31,600 bases of DNA. Source: a virus. The position numbers and the translations under genes are program-made. Within the stretch, counting starts at the first letter, position 1, and each line of letters starts with the position of its first letter. This document shows, in pieces, positions 2,999-29,551 of this stretch. The DNA lies in IMG/VR virus record IMGVR_UViG_3300042350_002182, positions 1 through 31,600 of that record. One strand, given 5' to 3'. The notes beneath the pieces are model-generated. The model was not told where the DNA came from and did not search any database. It saw only the letters and a list, made by a program, of their open reading frames with translations.

Positions 2999-3373
2999 TT
3001 AGCGAGGTTGGCAGGTGGCTGTGACGATTTGCAGAGCGTCACCCACTGATCGGGCCACGCCAGCGATGCCACCGGCGAGGTGGACGGCATCGCGCCAGCT
3101 GCGCTGCTGCGGCGTGAGGCGGCCCGTGGGGGTCTTGATCTCGATGGAGGTGAACACGGCCAGGGTGGTGCCCACCATGTCGGGGGTGACCACGATGGTG
3201 CGCCAGCCGATCAGATCAGCGGAACCGCGGGCCAGGCCGAAGGTGACCAGCCGGCCGGTGCGGGGGTCGGGCAAGGCGCCGCACTGGTTGCGGAACAGTC
3301 TGGTCTGCGGATCGGTGCCGAGCGCGAGCCTGATGCGCTGCTGCAGGTCGGTTTCGGCGTTGGCCACGATCAT
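2999..3373 (-). CDS. VRR-NUC domain nuclease
   Basis: A 124-residue protein of the VRR-NUC branch of the PD-(D/E)XK nucleases, a group that acts on branched or flap DNA and is common in phage replication modules. Visible motifs: 'RLFRNQCGALPD' near the N-terminus, 'GLARGSADLIGW' (the metal-binding aspartate) and 'IEIKTPTGRLTPQQRSW', with E-x-K and the conserved TG-LTPQQ signature, followed by 'GGIAGVARSVGDAL'. The start is set at the ATG at 3373, whose ATGA overlaps the helicase stop and implies translational coupling; an upstream start at 3412 would add 13 residues inside the helicase gene. The family length (about 100-130 aa) agrees with the short form. Confidence 0.88.
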   Translation of the reverse strand: MIVANAETDLQQRIRLALGTDPQTRLFRNQCGALPDPRTGRLVTFGLARGSADLIGWRTIVVTPDMVGTTLAVFTSIEIKTPTGRLTPQQRSWRDAVHLAGGIAGVARSVGDALQIVTATCQPR

Positions 3374-22584: not shown

Positions 22585-23102
22585 ACGTAGATGCGCTCCA
22601 GCTCGTAAGCTAGTTCGTAGCGGTTGCAGCTTACATAAGAGAGTTGCCAGCCGTCACGCAGTAAGTAGTTCTTAGGACTTTCGGTGAGCGCGATGGTGAT
22701 TGGTACGCTGTTAGCGATGGTCACACTGGTAAGCACGCCGCTTACGAGGTTAGCGGTGTAGTTTGCAGGACGTGTGTAACCTGTTAGTACCAAGCTGCTT
22801 ATGTTTGTGTAACCCAAAATCAGGGTTCCCGCGCTAAACTGCGCCACAAACGATTTACTGGTATCAGGTGGGCTCCAGCTTATAGGGGTATCGGCGCTGC
22901 GCTTTAGCAAGGCTTCGATGGTGAAAGCATCCGTGCTTTCTAGGATGTCGGTGCGGCAGCTCCAGACTTCCTTTTCGGCATTAAGGCCATCTGCCATGAT
23001 CTGGCTGTAGCCATCGCCGAAGGCAGCACGTTGAAAACGCTTGTTCCGCTTGACGGTGCTAGCAGTGGTAAGAGGAATATCGTTGAATGTGAGGTAGCTC
23101 AT
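22581..23102 (-). CDS. Minor tail protein (lambda M-like) with internal insertion
   Basis: A 173-residue protein: the M family is about 110 aa. The N-terminal half matches ('VKRNKRFQRAAFGDGYSQIM', 'GLNAEKEVW', 'TPISWSPPD') and the end does too ('LRDGWQLSYVSCNRYELAYEL'). Between them, residues ~84-145 are a beta-rich insertion (T, S, V and A rich, 'LILGYTNISSLVLTGYT', 'VSGVLTSVTIANSVPITI'), encoded by a visibly more AT-rich segment (22668-22853). It overlaps the tape-measure stop by 4 nt and L start by 4 nt. Confidence 0.85.
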   Translation of the reverse strand: MSYLTFNDIPLTTASTVKRNKRFQRAAFGDGYSQIMADGLNAEKEVWSCRTDILESTDAFTIEALLKRSADTPISWSPPDTSKSFVAQFSAGTLILGYTNISSLVLTGYTRPANYTANLVSGVLTSVTIANSVPITIALTESPKNYLLRDGWQLSYVSCNRYELAYELERIYV

Positions 23103-25381
23103 CGCAGGACGCCTCCACCACGGCGCTGGTCAACGAGGGTTGCCAACACAATACCGCGAACCTGGCCGGCGATTTGCTTTTGAGCCGCTGGACTCAGCTG
23201 CTCGCCGCTGTTTTCAACATTGATGGTGATGTTGTCCACCTGCACACTGTTGCCACCGCCGCCGCCCTTCATCGCCACGGGGATGCGCCGGCCATCAGGC
23301 AGGGGCACGTAGGCCTCGGGCATCGAGCCCTCGCCGAACATGGCCAGTTGAGGGCTGTTGGCGATGCCGCCGCGGGCGTACTTCTTGAGCGGCAGGGGGC
23401 CGTCGCTGGTCATGATGCCGCCAGTGGCAAACTTAAAGCCAGGGAACAGGCCGCCGATCGCCTTCACGATCGGTCCGATGATCGCTGCGCGCAGCGCGAT
23501 CCGCGCTAGGTCTGAAAGGATACTGGCAGCCAGCTCTTTAAAGTTTGCCTTGCCCGTGGTCACAAATGCCGTCAGCTGATCCTCAAGGCCCTTAAGGCCA
23601 CTTACCACGGCATCACCAATGGCGCCACCAAGATCCTTCACGCTGTTGTAATAATCCTGCAAGCGGTCGCGAATACCGGCGCCGATTGATTCGCTGTCAG
23701 TTTTTTGCTTCTTAGTTGCATCGTCTAATGCCTTGGCACGCTCGCGGAGGAGCCGCACATGCTCAGCCAGTGCCGGGTTGGTTTGGGCCAGGATGTCCAG
23801 CTGAAGCAGGTTCACCTCTGCGTTCAGCTTCTCCAGCTCCGTCAGCTCAGTTTTGCCGCGCGTTACTTCGGCAATCTTGGCGTCGTAGTCGGCCAGACTG
23901 GGCAGCAAATCTTTGAGCCCCTGCTGGTAGTTCCTATCGGCAAGCGCCAGATTACCTGCATACAGCTTGTCAATCAGGTCCTTGTAGGGCTCCGCGTCAA
24001 TCGAACCACCTGCTTCGTTGATCTCGCGCACCAGTTCCACCACGCTCAAGGTGAGCTGCTTGACTTGGCGCTCGTTCTCGGTGATGGCCCCATTGCGATC
24101 GAGAAGCAGCTGATCAACCGGCGAAGCGCCCACGCTTTTATAAGCTGCGGCCACGTCGGCAACGCTGTTCTGCAGCTGCTCTTGCAGGCTGATGGCCCGC
24201 TGCGTCAGGCTGGCACGGCGATCTTCCAGTCGCTCCTGTTCAGCTGCAGCACGCTTGGCCTCAGCGGCTCGCCTCTTGGCTTCTGCATCTGCTTTCCTGT
24301 CGGCGTCAGTCGTGTCGAGTCCCATCGAGCGCCCACTTGTCCGCCGGCCGGTGCCGGGGGAGGGGGCAGAGCCAAATGCCAGTTTGTTGAGGTCGGCCAG
24401 GATTTTTTTCTGCTCCTCAATGCCGCTGCTTACTCGGCTGGTAATGGTCTGCCAAGCGGCGCCAAAATCACCCGACAAGGCCTGGCCAGCAGCCTGCACC
24501 GCGGCCACCACGTTCTTGATCAGCACGTCTACCGCCTTGACCACAATGTAGATCGCAACTGCAATGCCGCGGATAACGCCCTCGATCACCTTAAACAGCG
24601 CCGTCCAATCCTGATCCGTGTCGAACAGATCGCCAAACACCTCAAGGATTGATTGCAGCGCCGGCAGCAACGCATCGGTCAGTTCAAGCCCAAAGCCCTG
24701 CGCCTTGATGCCTAATTCGGTGATCGTGTCATTGAACAAATCAGAGCGCGCCGCGAAATCATCGCCCACCTTGTAGGTGAACTTTTCCATGCTGGTTGCG
24801 CCTTCATTCAGCAGCGGGATCAGCTCGGCGCCAGACTTGCCGAACAGTGCAACGGCTGCGGCCGCCTTCTGCGCGCCGTCAGGCATGTCAGCAAAGCGAT
24901 CAGCGATCTGCTTTAGCGCCCTGTCGGCTGGTACAACTTGACCGTTGGAGTCTTTGACCTTCACGCCAAGCGCTTGGAATTTCCGCGCTAGATCATCGTT
25001 GCCCTCGGCCGCTTTGACCAGATTCACACTCAGCTTGGTGAGACCCTTGGCAAGGGTGCCCTGATCCACGTCTGCCAGCTTGGCGGCATTGCCCAAGCCA
25101 ATGAGCGCCTTGGCAGCGATACCAGTTTTTGCCTGCAGATTAAACAGCTCATCGCCTGCATCGATCGATTTTTTCACGATGGCAGTAAGGCCGCCCACGA
25201 TGGCGCTGCCGGCAATCGCAGCACCGAAGCCCATCACAGCGCCCTTCAGGCTGCTGAAGTTCATGGCAGCGTTCTTGGCCTGCCCCTGCAGACCCTGCAT
25301 GGAGTTGCCAAGGCGCCGGATGTTGTTCTCGCCCTGAACGTCCGCCTTGATGCGGAGCATGGCGTCCATGTTCATGGCCAT
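23099..25381 (-). CDS. Tail tape measure protein (lambda H-like)
   Basis: A 760-residue tape measure that sets tail length and is ejected at infection. Features: coiled N-terminus ('MLRIKADVQGENNIRRLGNSMQG'), hydrophobic segments near residues 48-66 ('AVMGFGAAIAGSAIVGGLTAI') and 270-290 ('VIRGIAVAIYIVVKAVDVLI'), long Ala/Lys/Arg/Glu helices (about 350-400), and a classic C-terminus ('FATGGIMTSDGPLPLKKYARGG', then 'FGEGSMPEAYVPLPDGRRIPV' and a poly-Gly stretch; positions ~660-720). 760 aa predicts a tail of roughly 110-115 nm by the usual ~0.15 nm per residue rule. No lytic transglycosylase or peptidase motif is seen. ATG 25381 is 1 nt after the TGA of the GT frame. Confidence 0.93.
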   Translation of the reverse strand: MAMNMDAMLRIKADVQGENNIRRLGNSMQGLQGQAKNAAMNFSSLKGAVMGFGAAIAGSAIVGGLTAIVKKSIDAGDELFNLQAKTGIAAKALIGLGNAAKLADVDQGTLAKGLTKLSVNLVKAAEGNDDLARKFQALGVKVKDSNGQVVPADRALKQIADRFADMPDGAQKAAAAVALFGKSGAELIPLLNEGATSMEKFTYKVGDDFAARSDLFNDTITELGIKAQGFGLELTDALLPALQSILEVFGDLFDTDQDWTALFKVIEGVIRGIAVAIYIVVKAVDVLIKNVVAAVQAAGQALSGDFGAAWQTITSRVSSGIEEQKKILADLNKLAFGSAPSPGTGRRTSGRSMGLDTTDADRKADAEAKRRAAEAKRAAAEQERLEDRRASLTQRAISLQEQLQNSVADVAAAYKSVGASPVDQLLLDRNGAITENERQVKQLTLSVVELVREINEAGGSIDAEPYKDLIDKLYAGNLALADRNYQQGLKDLLPSLADYDAKIAEVTRGKTELTELEKLNAEVNLLQLDILAQTNPALAEHVRLLRERAKALDDATKKQKTDSESIGAGIRDRLQDYYNSVKDLGGAIGDAVVSGLKGLEDQLTAFVTTGKANFKELAASILSDLARIALRAAIIGPIVKAIGGLFPGFKFATGGIMTSDGPLPLKKYARGGIANSPQLAMFGEGSMPEAYVPLPDGRRIPVAMKGGGGGNSVQVDNITINVENSGEQLSPAAQKQIAGQVRGIVLATLVDQRRGGGVLR

Positions 25382-25382
25382 G

Positions 25383-25703
25383 TCAACTGCTCCGGTTGTT
25401 GATGGTCAGCATCGCGGCCGCTTCCATGATCTGCAGATCCTCCAGCAGTTCGCGCGGGTCTTTCACTGCGTACATCTTAAAGAGCCACGCCACTGCCCCA
25501 TAATCGAGGCCCAGCACGCCGTTCATGGTGGTGCGCCACTGCGTCTGGCATCGCAGAAACATTTGAACGACCGTCCAGTTCTCCTCCCATACCTCGAAGT
25601 GCTCCGGCTCCGGCTCAGGCATCACAATCCCCAGAGCAGCAGCGTCAGCATCGGTTTCGTCCACCACTCCGCCGCTGGCCCAATGCTCAGCGGCCTCGGT
25701 CAG
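25383..25703 (-). CDS. Tail chaperone T-frame (DUF1799-like), made by -1 frameshift from the G gene
   Basis: The frame from CTG at 25703 to 25383 encodes about 106 residues and has no convincing own start (a GTG pair at 25667 lacks a ribosome site). It is in the -1 frame relative to the upstream chaperone and is entered from the A AAA AAC slip site at 25709-25703. Its sequence ('EPEPEHFEVWEENWTVVQMFL', 'MNGVLGLDYGAVAWLFKMYAV') matches the DUF1799 family of downstream chaperone frames. The G-T fusion would be about 225 aa and would escort the tape measure and tube subunits, as lambda gpGT does. Confidence 0.85.
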   Translation of the reverse strand: MTEAAEHWASGGVVDETDADAAALGIVMPEPEPEHFEVWEENWTVVQMFLRCQTQWRTTMNGVLGLDYGAVAWLFKMYAVKDPRELLEDLQIMEAAAMLTINNRSS

Positions 25704-25709
25704 TTTTTT
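25671..25709 (-). promoter_or_regulatory. Programmed -1 ribosomal frameshift site with hairpin
   Basis: The heptamer A AAA AAC (25709-25703) is in the correct phase: the zero frame reads AGA AAA AAC TGA and stops at once. An 8-nt spacer (25702-25695) precedes a perfect 7-bp hairpin, GCCGCTG (25694-25688) with CAGCGGC (25677-25671), loop of 10 nt. The -1 frame then runs 12 codons into the open T frame. Confidence 0.88.
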
Positions 25710-26073: not shown

Positions 26074-27003
26074 TCAGGTGAAAGCGAGGCTCACTTCATC
26101 ATTGCCGGCCGTGGTCGGAACGGCAACATACGGGATGCTAAGCATCTGTACGCCATCCTGATCCCCATAGGTTGGGTTGGAAATATCGCACTGGCCGGCG
26201 GTGAGCGTGACGCGGTTGCCGGCGGTGGTGCCGTGCAGGAAGGTCAGGTTGCCGGTGGTTTCGGTCTGGGCGATACCGAAGTAGTCCTTGGTGGCCAGGG
26301 TGGGGGCCTCGATCATGACCGTACCGGCCGGTTTACGATCAGTGATCATGACCTCTTTCGTGCAGCCAACCAGCTCGCGGTAGACAGTGCTGTTGGCAAT
26401 CTCAAAAGTGACCGACTGGAGGCAGCCGGCGTAGCTGAAGAACTGGAAGGCGGACGTGTTGCCCTGCTTAAAGATCAAGGGACTGGCCTGCGCGCTGTAG
26501 GTGGTGGAAGGCAACGCCGTATCGGTCGGCGCGTTGTAAATGCCCACCATCGTGAAGTCAATGGTCGGGATCTGCCCCACCTCGGCGTTTAGCGTGAATG
26601 TCCCGCGGCAGCCGGTCAGGATGTGGCGAATGCCGTCGTTGTTGAAGTAGATCGTCGCAGAGCTGAACGCGCTGCTTACCGGCGCATAGGTGACGCTGGT
26701 GCTGGCCACGATCGTCTCCGACATGGCACAAGCCTGCAGGATGGCGCCGTAACGGGGGGCAGTGCCAGCAGTGCCGGAGCCCGCCATCTCCACCTGGAAT
26801 GTAATGCTCACCCGGCTATTGGCCAGCAGTTGCGGGCTATTGCCAAGGTAAGGACGGATTAAATCACGGCTGACCACATCAGCCTCGATCGGAGTGATCT
26901 CAAGGTTCCGCACCAGCAGGGCGTCGGTACCTGCCGGGGTGCTGTCCGTCCCGTAGGTGGCTTCCTTTTTAACCTGGATCAGTCTTTTGCGTGTCAGAGC
27001 CAT
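26074..27003 (-). CDS. Major tail (tube) protein
   Basis: A 309-residue beta-rich protein in the lambda V position. N-terminal 'KKEATYGTDSTPAGTDALLVRN' and 'SRDLIRPYLGNSPQLLANSRVSITFQVE' are characteristic of phage tail tube proteins (E-TYG-D--P). The central 'TIYFNNDGIRHILTGCRGTFTLNAEVGQIP' and 'FTMVGIYN' (a conserved G-Y/N-- end of the first domain) are followed by a second beta domain to 'VAVPTTAGNDEVSLAFT'. Five or so cysteines are dispersed. The start overlaps the previous small gene by 35 nt. Confidence 0.9.
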   Translation of the reverse strand: MALTRKRLIQVKKEATYGTDSTPAGTDALLVRNLEITPIEADVVSRDLIRPYLGNSPQLLANSRVSITFQVEMAGSGTAGTAPRYGAILQACAMSETIVASTSVTYAPVSSAFSSATIYFNNDGIRHILTGCRGTFTLNAEVGQIPTIDFTMVGIYNAPTDTALPSTTYSAQASPLIFKQGNTSAFQFFSYAGCLQSVTFEIANSTVYRELVGCTKEVMITDRKPAGTVMIEAPTLATKDYFGIAQTETTGNLTFLHGTTAGNRVTLTAGQCDISNPTYGDQDGVQMLSIPYVAVPTTAGNDEVSLAFT

Positions 27004-27564: not shown

Positions 27565-27905
27565 TGTCTTGCTGCCATGACCAAATCATTCAACAGCTTC
27601 GCCAGTGACTCCGCATCACCCGTCGCAGCAGCGGCGAGGATGCCGTTGGCTGTTGCGGTCAGGTCCAGTGGCTCAGACTCAGGCGGTGCCGGTGGCTTAG
27701 CGACGACCACGAGCGCACCATCCACCCAATCGAGTTGCTGCGTGGCAGGGTCGTAAGGCGGTTCAACATAGGGGCCGGTGAAACCAGCAATGAGGATCTC
27801 ATCCTCGGTGAAGGTGCTCGGATCGGTGCGGGTGAAACCGTTGGGCAAGGTGATGCGGAAGGGGAGCGGGGCAGGGCGATTGCCGTGGAAGGAGTAGAGC
27901 ATCAC
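27561..27905 (-). CDS. Fibre-associated or structural protein
   Basis: A 114-residue protein: 'MLYSFHGNRPAPLPFRITLPNGFTRTDPSTFTEDEILIAGFTGPY' (positions 2-46), then 'YDPATQQLDWVDGALVVVAKPP', and an Ala-rich helical C-terminus. The N-terminal part (NG-TRTDPSTFTEEEI--AG--GP) is a pattern remembered from cyanophage fibre neighbourhoods, perhaps a fibre chaperone or small virion protein. Overlaps the propeller gene by 4 nt. Either ATG of 'MM' may start it. Confidence 0.6.
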   Translation of the reverse strand: MMLYSFHGNRPAPLPFRITLPNGFTRTDPSTFTEDEILIAGFTGPYVEPPYDPATQQLDWVDGALVVVAKPPAPPESEPLDLTATANGILAAAATGDAESLAKLLNDLVMAARQ

Positions 27906-29551
27906 GCAAACCTCAGAGAGAATTGGTATAGGCCCTGCGCACTGTCGGTGAGCGCAAACATACGAGTGTTATCAGGCGATACGCGGACGCCCCACACCAG
28001 ACCAACTGGTCCGGTCAAACCATAAAATGCAATCAATTCCGTGGTATTAAGAGATGCCGTTGTCAGATCGTTAGGTGATGTCATTGAAATCTGCCTAACT
28101 TGTCTTCCTCCATTTAAGGCAGTGTCGCTAGTGGATGCGTACATGGTTCGACCGTCCGCAGTAACGTGAACTCCAAGGGCTCCCGTCAATGCAAAGCTCT
28201 GGGACAATGTGGCAGTTCCCACCTCGTAGGCAGTAGAAAGTGTGTATTTACGAATGTTGTTAGAGGCAGTGCCGGCAAGAAATAGCAGGGTTCCATCGCT
28301 GTTGATGTGAATACCGCGAGGAGCACTTTCTGTAGCAAATACATAAATAAATCCCTTGGCAGTGCTGATGTCCCATGCAGTGCCGAGTTGGATTTCGTAA
28401 ACAGTGTCATTTGTCTGACCTAAAACATATAACTCAGTACCGTCGTCCTTGAAAGTTATACCTGTGGGATTGGCTTCAAATCCAATAGATAGTGAGCGTA
28501 CAAAAGAAATTGTGGATACGTTAAAGGCTGATGACAACGAAAACTCTCTAATAGTGTCGTTGCCTTGTCCAGTGATATACATTTTAAAGCCATCTTCCTT
28601 GAACCAGAGTCCGGTAGGAGTTGCTTCACCGACTGTCGCAGACACGCGCACAAAAGATGCTGTGCTGACATCCCAGGAGGTACCTAGATTGTATTCATTA
28701 ACGTCGTCGCCACTTGTACCGATGACAAACATCCTGCTGCCGCCTGACGTGAAGAACAATGCGCGAGGCGACGTTTCCTGCGTGGCGACAGAAAAGCTAA
28801 GACTGGCGTAACTTGCAGTGCTAATGTCCCAAGCAGTGCTTAAAGTATATTGATAAACGGTATCGGTCGTTTGCCCAACCATGTAAAAAGCCAGGCCATC
28901 ACTCTTAAAGAAAATGCCTTGCGGTGTAGTATCTTGCGTCGTGACACTGAAACTTTTGCTGGCGTAAGTAGCCGTGGTGACGTCCCAAGCAGTGCTTAGT
29001 GTGTACTGATACACCGTGTCATTGTTGGTACCCATGACATACATCTTGGTGCCGCTGTCGCCAAAGAATGGCGTGCTCGGCACTGTGTCTTGCCCGCCGA
29101 CGTAGACTTTCTTTACGTCAACTGTGGCAGTGGCAAGATCGTAAGGCGTGGATAATGTGCAAGACCACACAGTATCTACATTATACCCGGTGAAATAAAG
29201 GCGGGTGCCATCATCACTGATAGCGATGCCATTGCAGTTAAGTTCATAATCGCCAACGACTAGGCTTTTACTGGAGTAGGTGATCGTTGCAAGATTCCAA
29301 GGTGTTGTGCATTCGTACTGAAAGATGGTTGCAGTAGTTCGCGTACCACGCACCGCAACATAGACATAGCGTCCGTCACGGCTAACATCAAAGCCCTCTT
29401 CAGCGCCAGAGCTGGTCAAAGCGTTGAAAACGCCGTCATAACCAAAGCGCGAGACGTACTTTTTGGCATCTTGCAACGCCACCACGTCCTCGGGCTGATA
29501 CACCCCGCTGGTGCGCTTGCTATCCGTTCCGCCAATCAGTCCAAGTCTCAT
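27902..29551 (-). CDS. Ten-repeat beta-propeller-type fibre protein
   Basis: A 549-residue protein almost wholly made of ~48-50-residue repeats of pattern G-(F/W)F--DG---Y--G----(D)TV--Y-LST-WD(V/I)STA-Y-S-SFS(V). Ten copies of the strand core can be picked out, for example 'GIAISDDGTRLYFTG', 'GIFFKSDGLAFYMVG', 'GLWFKEDGFKMYITG', 'GITFKDDGTELYVLG' and 'GVRVSPDNTRMFALT'. Such repeats form beta-propellers used for carbohydrate or protein binding. A ~35-residue N-terminal cap ('RLGLIGGTDSKRTSGVYQPEDV') may dock it. It is more AT-rich than its neighbours, so acquisition is likely. It lies in the fibre block between neck and tail terminator. Confidence 0.8.
   Translation of the reverse strand: MRLGLIGGTDSKRTSGVYQPEDVVALQDAKKYVSRFGYDGVFNALTSSGAEEGFDVSRDGRYVYVAVRGTRTTATIFQYECTTPWNLATITYSSKSLVVGDYELNCNGIAISDDGTRLYFTGYNVDTVWSCTLSTPYDLATATVDVKKVYVGGQDTVPSTPFFGDSGTKMYVMGTNNDTVYQYTLSTAWDVTTATYASKSFSVTTQDTTPQGIFFKSDGLAFYMVGQTTDTVYQYTLSTAWDISTASYASLSFSVATQETSPRALFFTSGGSRMFVIGTSGDDVNEYNLGTSWDVSTASFVRVSATVGEATPTGLWFKEDGFKMYITGQGNDTIREFSLSSAFNVSTISFVRSLSIGFEANPTGITFKDDGTELYVLGQTNDTVYEIQLGTAWDISTAKGFIYVFATESAPRGIHINSDGTLLFLAGTASNNIRKYTLSTAYEVGTATLSQSFALTGALGVHVTADGRTMYASTSDTALNGGRQVRQISMTSPNDLTTASLNTTELIAFYGLTGPVGLVWGVRVSPDNTRMFALTDSAQGLYQFSLRFA

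Follow-up and report, generated by a model that had tools for sequence, protein, structure and literature searches.

The question raised by this locus is whether two short reading frames, G and T, are two separate genes or one gene whose end is reached by a -1 frameshift. The window analysed is the entire IMG/VR record IMGVR_UViG_3300042350_002182 (31,600 bases), in which the structural genes lie on the minus strand in the order tail tube, G, T and tape measure. The G/T pair is thus placed between the tail tube and tape measure genes, which is where the lambda G/GT pair is found. Table 1 lists the features of the locus together with two gene calls from the relative S-LBS1.

Table 1. Features of the G/T locus in the window, and the corresponding gene calls in S-LBS1 (sequence L003)
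Feature	Position	Strand	Basis or remark
Tail tube protein	26074..27003	-	PF18906 Phage_tube_2, 84.7 bits; upstream of G
G frame, tail assembly chaperone, zero-frame product, 119 aa	26059..25700	-	ends GCC AAG AGA AAA AAC TGA
Slippery heptamer A AAA AAC, in phase with G	25709..25703	-	read directly
Zero-frame stop TGA abutting the heptamer ("intercodon" stop)	25702..25700	-	read directly
8-nt spacer TGACCGAG, heptamer to stem	25702..25695	-	read directly
5' stem arm GCCGCTG	25694..25688	-	fold; inner pairs carry on at 25686-25685
3' stem arm CAGCGGC	25677..25671	-	fold; inner pairs at 25679-25678
T frame after -1 slip, 106 codons and stop, DUF1799	25703..25383	-	PF08809
Tape measure protein	23099..25381	-	PF09718 Tape_meas_lam_C, 77.5 bits; downstream of T
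S-LBS1 G chaperone, gene A18	L003 3001-3381		annotated as FepC-type ABC transporter ATPase
S-LBS1 T frame, gene A20	L003 3579-3722		annotated as truncated, 47 codons

The original prediction had described an A AAA AAC heptamer in the correct phase with TGA as the next zero-frame codon, an 8-nt spacer followed by a perfect 7-bp hairpin, a -1 frame leading into a DUF1799-like frame, and a fusion of about 225 aa. Heptamer, phase and stop were confirmed at the base level, the spacer is as described and the two stem arms are fully complementary. The T frame matches PF08809 (DUF1799) with 66.6 bits against a curated cut-off of 26, and the frame lengths sum to 119 + 106 = 225 aa for the predicted fusion. 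In the minimum-energy fold (-21.1 kcal/mol, z -2.9) the 7-bp stem is continued by two G-C pairs past a bulged A and is closed by the 5-nt loop ATTGG. When the 22 called minus-strand genes were checked, in-phase AAAAAAC was found only at the G/T junction, and G was the only gene with an in-phase X XXY YYZ motif within its last 60 nt. This uniqueness argues that the junction is not a product of chance. Arginine codons with A as the third base are scarce in the minus-strand genes counted (AGA 6/204, CGA 11/204).

Both frames can be assigned by similarity. G matches phrog_569 (E=4e-17) and phrog_313, "Tail assembly chaperone" (E=2e-6). Its match to PF08748 Phage_TAC_4 spans the full profile length and scores 17.0 bits (E=0.0072), below the cut-off of 21.1, and the S-CBS1 homologue of G scores 22.2 bits, above that cut-off. 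T matches phrog_680 (E=1.6e-29). In the fused family phrog_17368, the C-terminal half covers T and the N-terminal half covers the G of the relatives. In BFVD, the AlphaFold model of G (pLDDT 84) matches predicted tape measure chaperones of Serratia phage Scapp, which are entered under consecutive accessions as a short version and a long one of 236 aa. Solved structures searched with G, by profile and by fold, gave no match, and the T model (pLDDT 66) is too poor for a structure search. The gene order and the family matches (PF08809, the PHROG tail chaperones, and Phage_TAC_4 in S-CBS1) together agree with lambda G/GT.

Judged from the sequence, the locus is almost certainly a programmed -1 ribosomal frameshift in a tail-assembly chaperone gene, with G and a G-T fusion as its products. 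Most ribosomes would read G through to the TGA and release the 119-aa chaperone. A minority would pause at the hairpin and slip one base back on A AAA AAC, by which the TGA is avoided, and the shifted ribosomes would then read the DUF1799 (T) frame to give the 225-aa fusion. With simultaneous slippage of the two tRNAs, the junction would read GAKRKN-LTEAAEHW. As in lambda, to judge by homology and gene order, G would coat the tape measure protein while the rarer G-T would recruit tail tube subunits. That slippage occurs, how often it does so, which residue stands at the junction and what the products do in assembly are what we infer here.

The conservation of the elements was examined in a junction set built from IMG/VR scans and the isolates S-CBS1, S-LBS1 and S-CBS3, which gave 130 distinct junctions of the cyanosiphovirus lineage. 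In-phase AAAAAAC is kept in 129 of them; T is always in the -1 frame, and a stop (TGA or TAA) follows the slip site immediately in all 130. In the S-LBS1-like and S-CBS3-like clades the heptamer is present in 66/66. The codon before AAA is AGA, GCA, CGA, GAA, CAA, TCA or GTA, so the encoded residue varies (six amino acids) while the third base is A throughout, the pattern to be expected if selection acts on the heptamer rather than on the protein. In the main clade, synonymous variation almost disappears over the stretch that leads from the slip codons into the 5' stem arm, where the T-frame codons are AAA (79/79), AAA (78/79), CTG (79/79), GAG (76/76) and GCC (79/79); the exception is the second T codon. 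Farther downstream in T, the synonymous heterozygosity is 0.4-0.7 for most of the residues with several codons. From the deep conservation of the heptamer, the stop and the reading of T, we regard it as settled that the locus is more than a chance arrangement. A single relative of the lineage has a broken heptamer, AAAAAGC TGA (L061, around 3351-3360), which is either a sequencing error or a true variant with slippage in the P site only.

A downstream stimulatory structure is common, though not obligatory, in frameshifts of the lambda G/GT kind, and the comparison with synonymous randomisations points to one here. Of the 57 real junctions, 35 have a perfect 7-bp stem at the proper spacing, as compared with 184 of 5,700 randomisations (3.2%), and the mean MFE z of the 57 natural junctions is -2.1 relative to the randomised ones. 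In the main clade all seven pairs are retained in 43/54 distinct 45-mers, and some of the 45-mers carry a C-A mismatch. Covariation in this clade was not above shuffles (51/500 shuffles attain the score), because most stem columns hardly vary; one stem pair does change among C-G, U-G and U-A. The hairpins of the sister clades differ in shape. That of S-LBS1 has a stem of about 13 pairs beginning 5 nt past the heptamer, that of the S-CBS3 group is a long stem closed by GCGCCG/CGGCGC, and other relatives have GGCGCCGUGGA/UCCGCGGC. The spacer is 5-8 nt across the S-CBS1, S-CBS3 and S-LBS1 hairpins. At first sight S-CBS3 had no hairpin; this was rejected, since it is seen only when 45 nt are folded, and 48 nt give the long stem at -20.6 kcal/mol. 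Differently built hairpins predicted at the same place in sister clades are a stronger structural argument than covariation.

The stop that abuts the slip site led to a wider survey of DUF1799 loci, with 113 evaluable distinct junctions. The slip site is AAAAAAC or GGGAAAC in all 113, the latter in 61, among them Pseudomonas and Rhodobacter phages. (A/G)3AAAC with a stop directly behind it occurs in 110; the only exceptions are three loci (L386, L398 and L399) that read AAAAAAC TCA TAG, with one sense codon before the stop, and these are natural controls for the stop-adjacent rule. Twelve apparent +1 junctions in the survey were all ordinary -1 sites with an adjacent stop. Overall, the stop abuts the slip site in 240/243 junctions. 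T opens with CTG or CTA in 239/242, although other leucine codons are common downstream; at the second position of T the residue can be T, I, R, M or S, yet its codon begins with A in 240/242. The fixed CTG/CTA and the leading A of the second codon suggest that the stop itself is selected.

These counts bear on a version of the same frameshift in which slippage takes place after translocation, when the stop has entered the A site and the E and P sites are occupied by the two tRNAs; the release factor would then compete with the slip and help to set the G:GT ratio. According to a passage in PMC4373837 on earlier work, frameshifting in bacteria falls when the HIV-1 slip site is followed at once by a stop, and extra RF2 abolished it. 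Together with the stop-adjacent pattern and the constraints on the two T codons, this makes release-factor competition plausible here. On the other hand, a fusion of equal length would come from the usual tandem slip, with tRNA-Asn occupying the A site, the abutting stop may merely end G cleanly, and a TCA codon intervenes in the three exceptional loci. We consider the post-translocation version possible but rather improbable. The general form of the idea, namely that the stop is part of the frameshift signal in tail chaperones of the DUF1799 type, that slippage competes with the release factor and that the G:GT ratio responds to RF2/RF1, is put forward only tentatively and as something on the unlikely side. 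If it is true, tail assembly would depend on RF2/RF1 activity through the G:GT ratio. The stop-adjacent (A/G)3AAAC rule is in any case a simple and testable one about bacterial frameshifting at a heptamer thought to be weak there.

The public records of S-CBS1, S-CBS3 and S-LBS1 list G and T as two unrelated genes, and so imply that T is made separately from an internal start, in the window a GTG at 25667. Of the 82 loci compared, 28 have such a GTG as codon 14 of the T frame, and the GenBank records place the T start at various internal points. Nevertheless, no start is conserved: 52/82 loci are without ATG in the first 38 codons of T, 10/82 are without any ATG, GTG or TTG, and a Shine-Dalgarno-like sequence precedes a candidate start in only two of the 82. 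The GTG of the window is itself not conserved and has no such sequence before it. The original prediction that T has no good start of its own thus stands as far as a conserved start is concerned, with the correction that a weak GTG does exist. Nine of the 82 loci have a stop in the T frame 3 nt ahead of the heptamer, which closes T there to ribosomes coming from any earlier start. Just past the slip site, and ahead of every candidate start, T encodes the conserved peptide LTEAAEHWA, which would thus be translated only by ribosomes that arrive through the shift. A separately made T would also leave the invariance of the heptamer without a reason. By sequence, then, T is without an independent translation start, and we hold its separate synthesis to be very improbable. 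The combination that had been named as counter-evidence, a separate T start and no conserved heptamer, was looked for among the relatives and was not encountered.

The run of six A raises another alternative, that RNA polymerase slips on the homopolymer and produces mRNAs one base shorter or two bases longer, in which the frames are fused. Six A is short for slippage by bacterial RNA polymerase, which counts against this. No long homopolymer is kept in the homologues; the 61 junctions with GGGAAAC have no such run at the same place, and both the hairpin downstream and the stop that follows at once point to the ribosome. Transcriptional slippage is accordingly hard to credit. Homopolymer runs are also error-prone in sequencing, but an error, or a decayed gene that mimics two frames, is a negligible prospect when the same arrangement is seen in the isolates S-CBS1, S-CBS3 and S-LBS1 and in many contigs from many metagenomes.

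Several known systems are comparable. With lambda gpG/gpGT (Levin 1993; Xu 2004; review PMC5009743) the locus shares the location between tail tube and tape measure, the -1 slip near the end of G and the fusion to a T domain without a good start. Lambda requires G and GT at a ratio of about 30:1, with G as the binding partner of the tape measure protein and T as that of the tail tube subunit (PMC5009743). The heptamer is GGGAAAG in lambda and AAAAAAC here, where the T domain is DUF1799. The description of the locus as the lambda device with another heptamer holds for its kind but misses one difference, as the zero-frame stop is 15 nt after the slip site in lambda and abuts it here. Likewise, the cassette may be called canonical with respect to tandem-slip heptamers, but not with respect to E. 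coli: A AAA AAC ranks with the most shift-prone heptamers on mammalian ribosomes, yet in E. coli it falls far short of A AAA AAG (PMC5009743; PMC4066793), bacterial ribosomes being less tolerant of the AAC-to-AAA shift (PMC4066793).

Among phages of other hosts, HK578, T1, OzMSK, Sushi, phiES15 and Pseudomonas phiAH14a have a homologous T (PF08809) and probably a homologous G (phrog_569), and most of this group have (A/G)3AAAC with an immediate stop, which is usually TAA in the enterobacterial DUF1799 phages. The records of OzMSK and Sushi annotate a frameshifted chaperone explicitly. Klebsiella phage Sushi (Webervirus; L173, around 855-872) reads GCA AAA GTT TAA, without an X XXY YYZ heptamer, and may use a different slip of the P-site type. 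The window is also comparable, by slip site and tail-chaperone role, to Acinetobacter phage Loki gp12/gp13, where an AAAAAAC slip site adjoins the stop (PMC5313236), and to Caulobacter phage phiCbK gp93/gp94, with an AAAAAAC slip site (PMC3556154); AAAAAAC is known in the tail chaperone of HCTV-2 as well (PMC5009743). The closest isolates are S-CBS1, S-CBS3 and S-LBS1, which share the gene order, the heptamer, the immediate TGA and a predicted downstream hairpin.

The mechanism is already known, as is AAAAAAC in tail chaperones, and some DUF1799 phages are annotated as frameshifted. Two things seem to be new, the recognition of this chaperone in the cyanosiphovirus lineage and, for DUF1799 chaperones, a tabulation of the stop-adjacent (A/G)3AAAC rule. 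Our literature search, which left most subscription papers outside its reach, found no report of a frameshift in the S-CBS or S-LBS1 phages. The assignment corrects the annotation across a freshwater and estuarine cyanosiphovirus lineage, where two "hypothetical" genes become one frameshifted tail chaperone. In S-LBS1, the FepC label of A18 and the truncation of A20 look like annotation errors; gene A19 of the same phage is a spurious reverse-strand call spanning the junction.

By its sequence the virus appears to be of a cyanobacterial type, with nearest relatives of the cyanosiphovirus type. Named phages, searched by megablast with the structural half, gave nothing beyond short tail-protein matches. 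A host prophage was sought in species genomes, and the search returned a single 3.3-kb contig (L178) from a Burkholderiales metagenome bin, by which no host is proved; its G gene is 88% identical to that of the window, and the contig is probably misbinned phage DNA. Among the virion genes of the window, 27902-29551 (minus strand) encodes a 549-aa protein of repeats such as DTVYQYTLSTAWDVTTATY, with a weak match to a PHROG family of unknown function and no other match; it is likely a beta-propeller. In the wider set, one junction comes from the unverified record MG065669 (L175), named "Campylobacter phage A123". The record is classed in Drexlerviridae (Tempevirinae), its DUF1799 chaperone junction is of the type seen in coliphages, and its stated Campylobacter host is doubtful.
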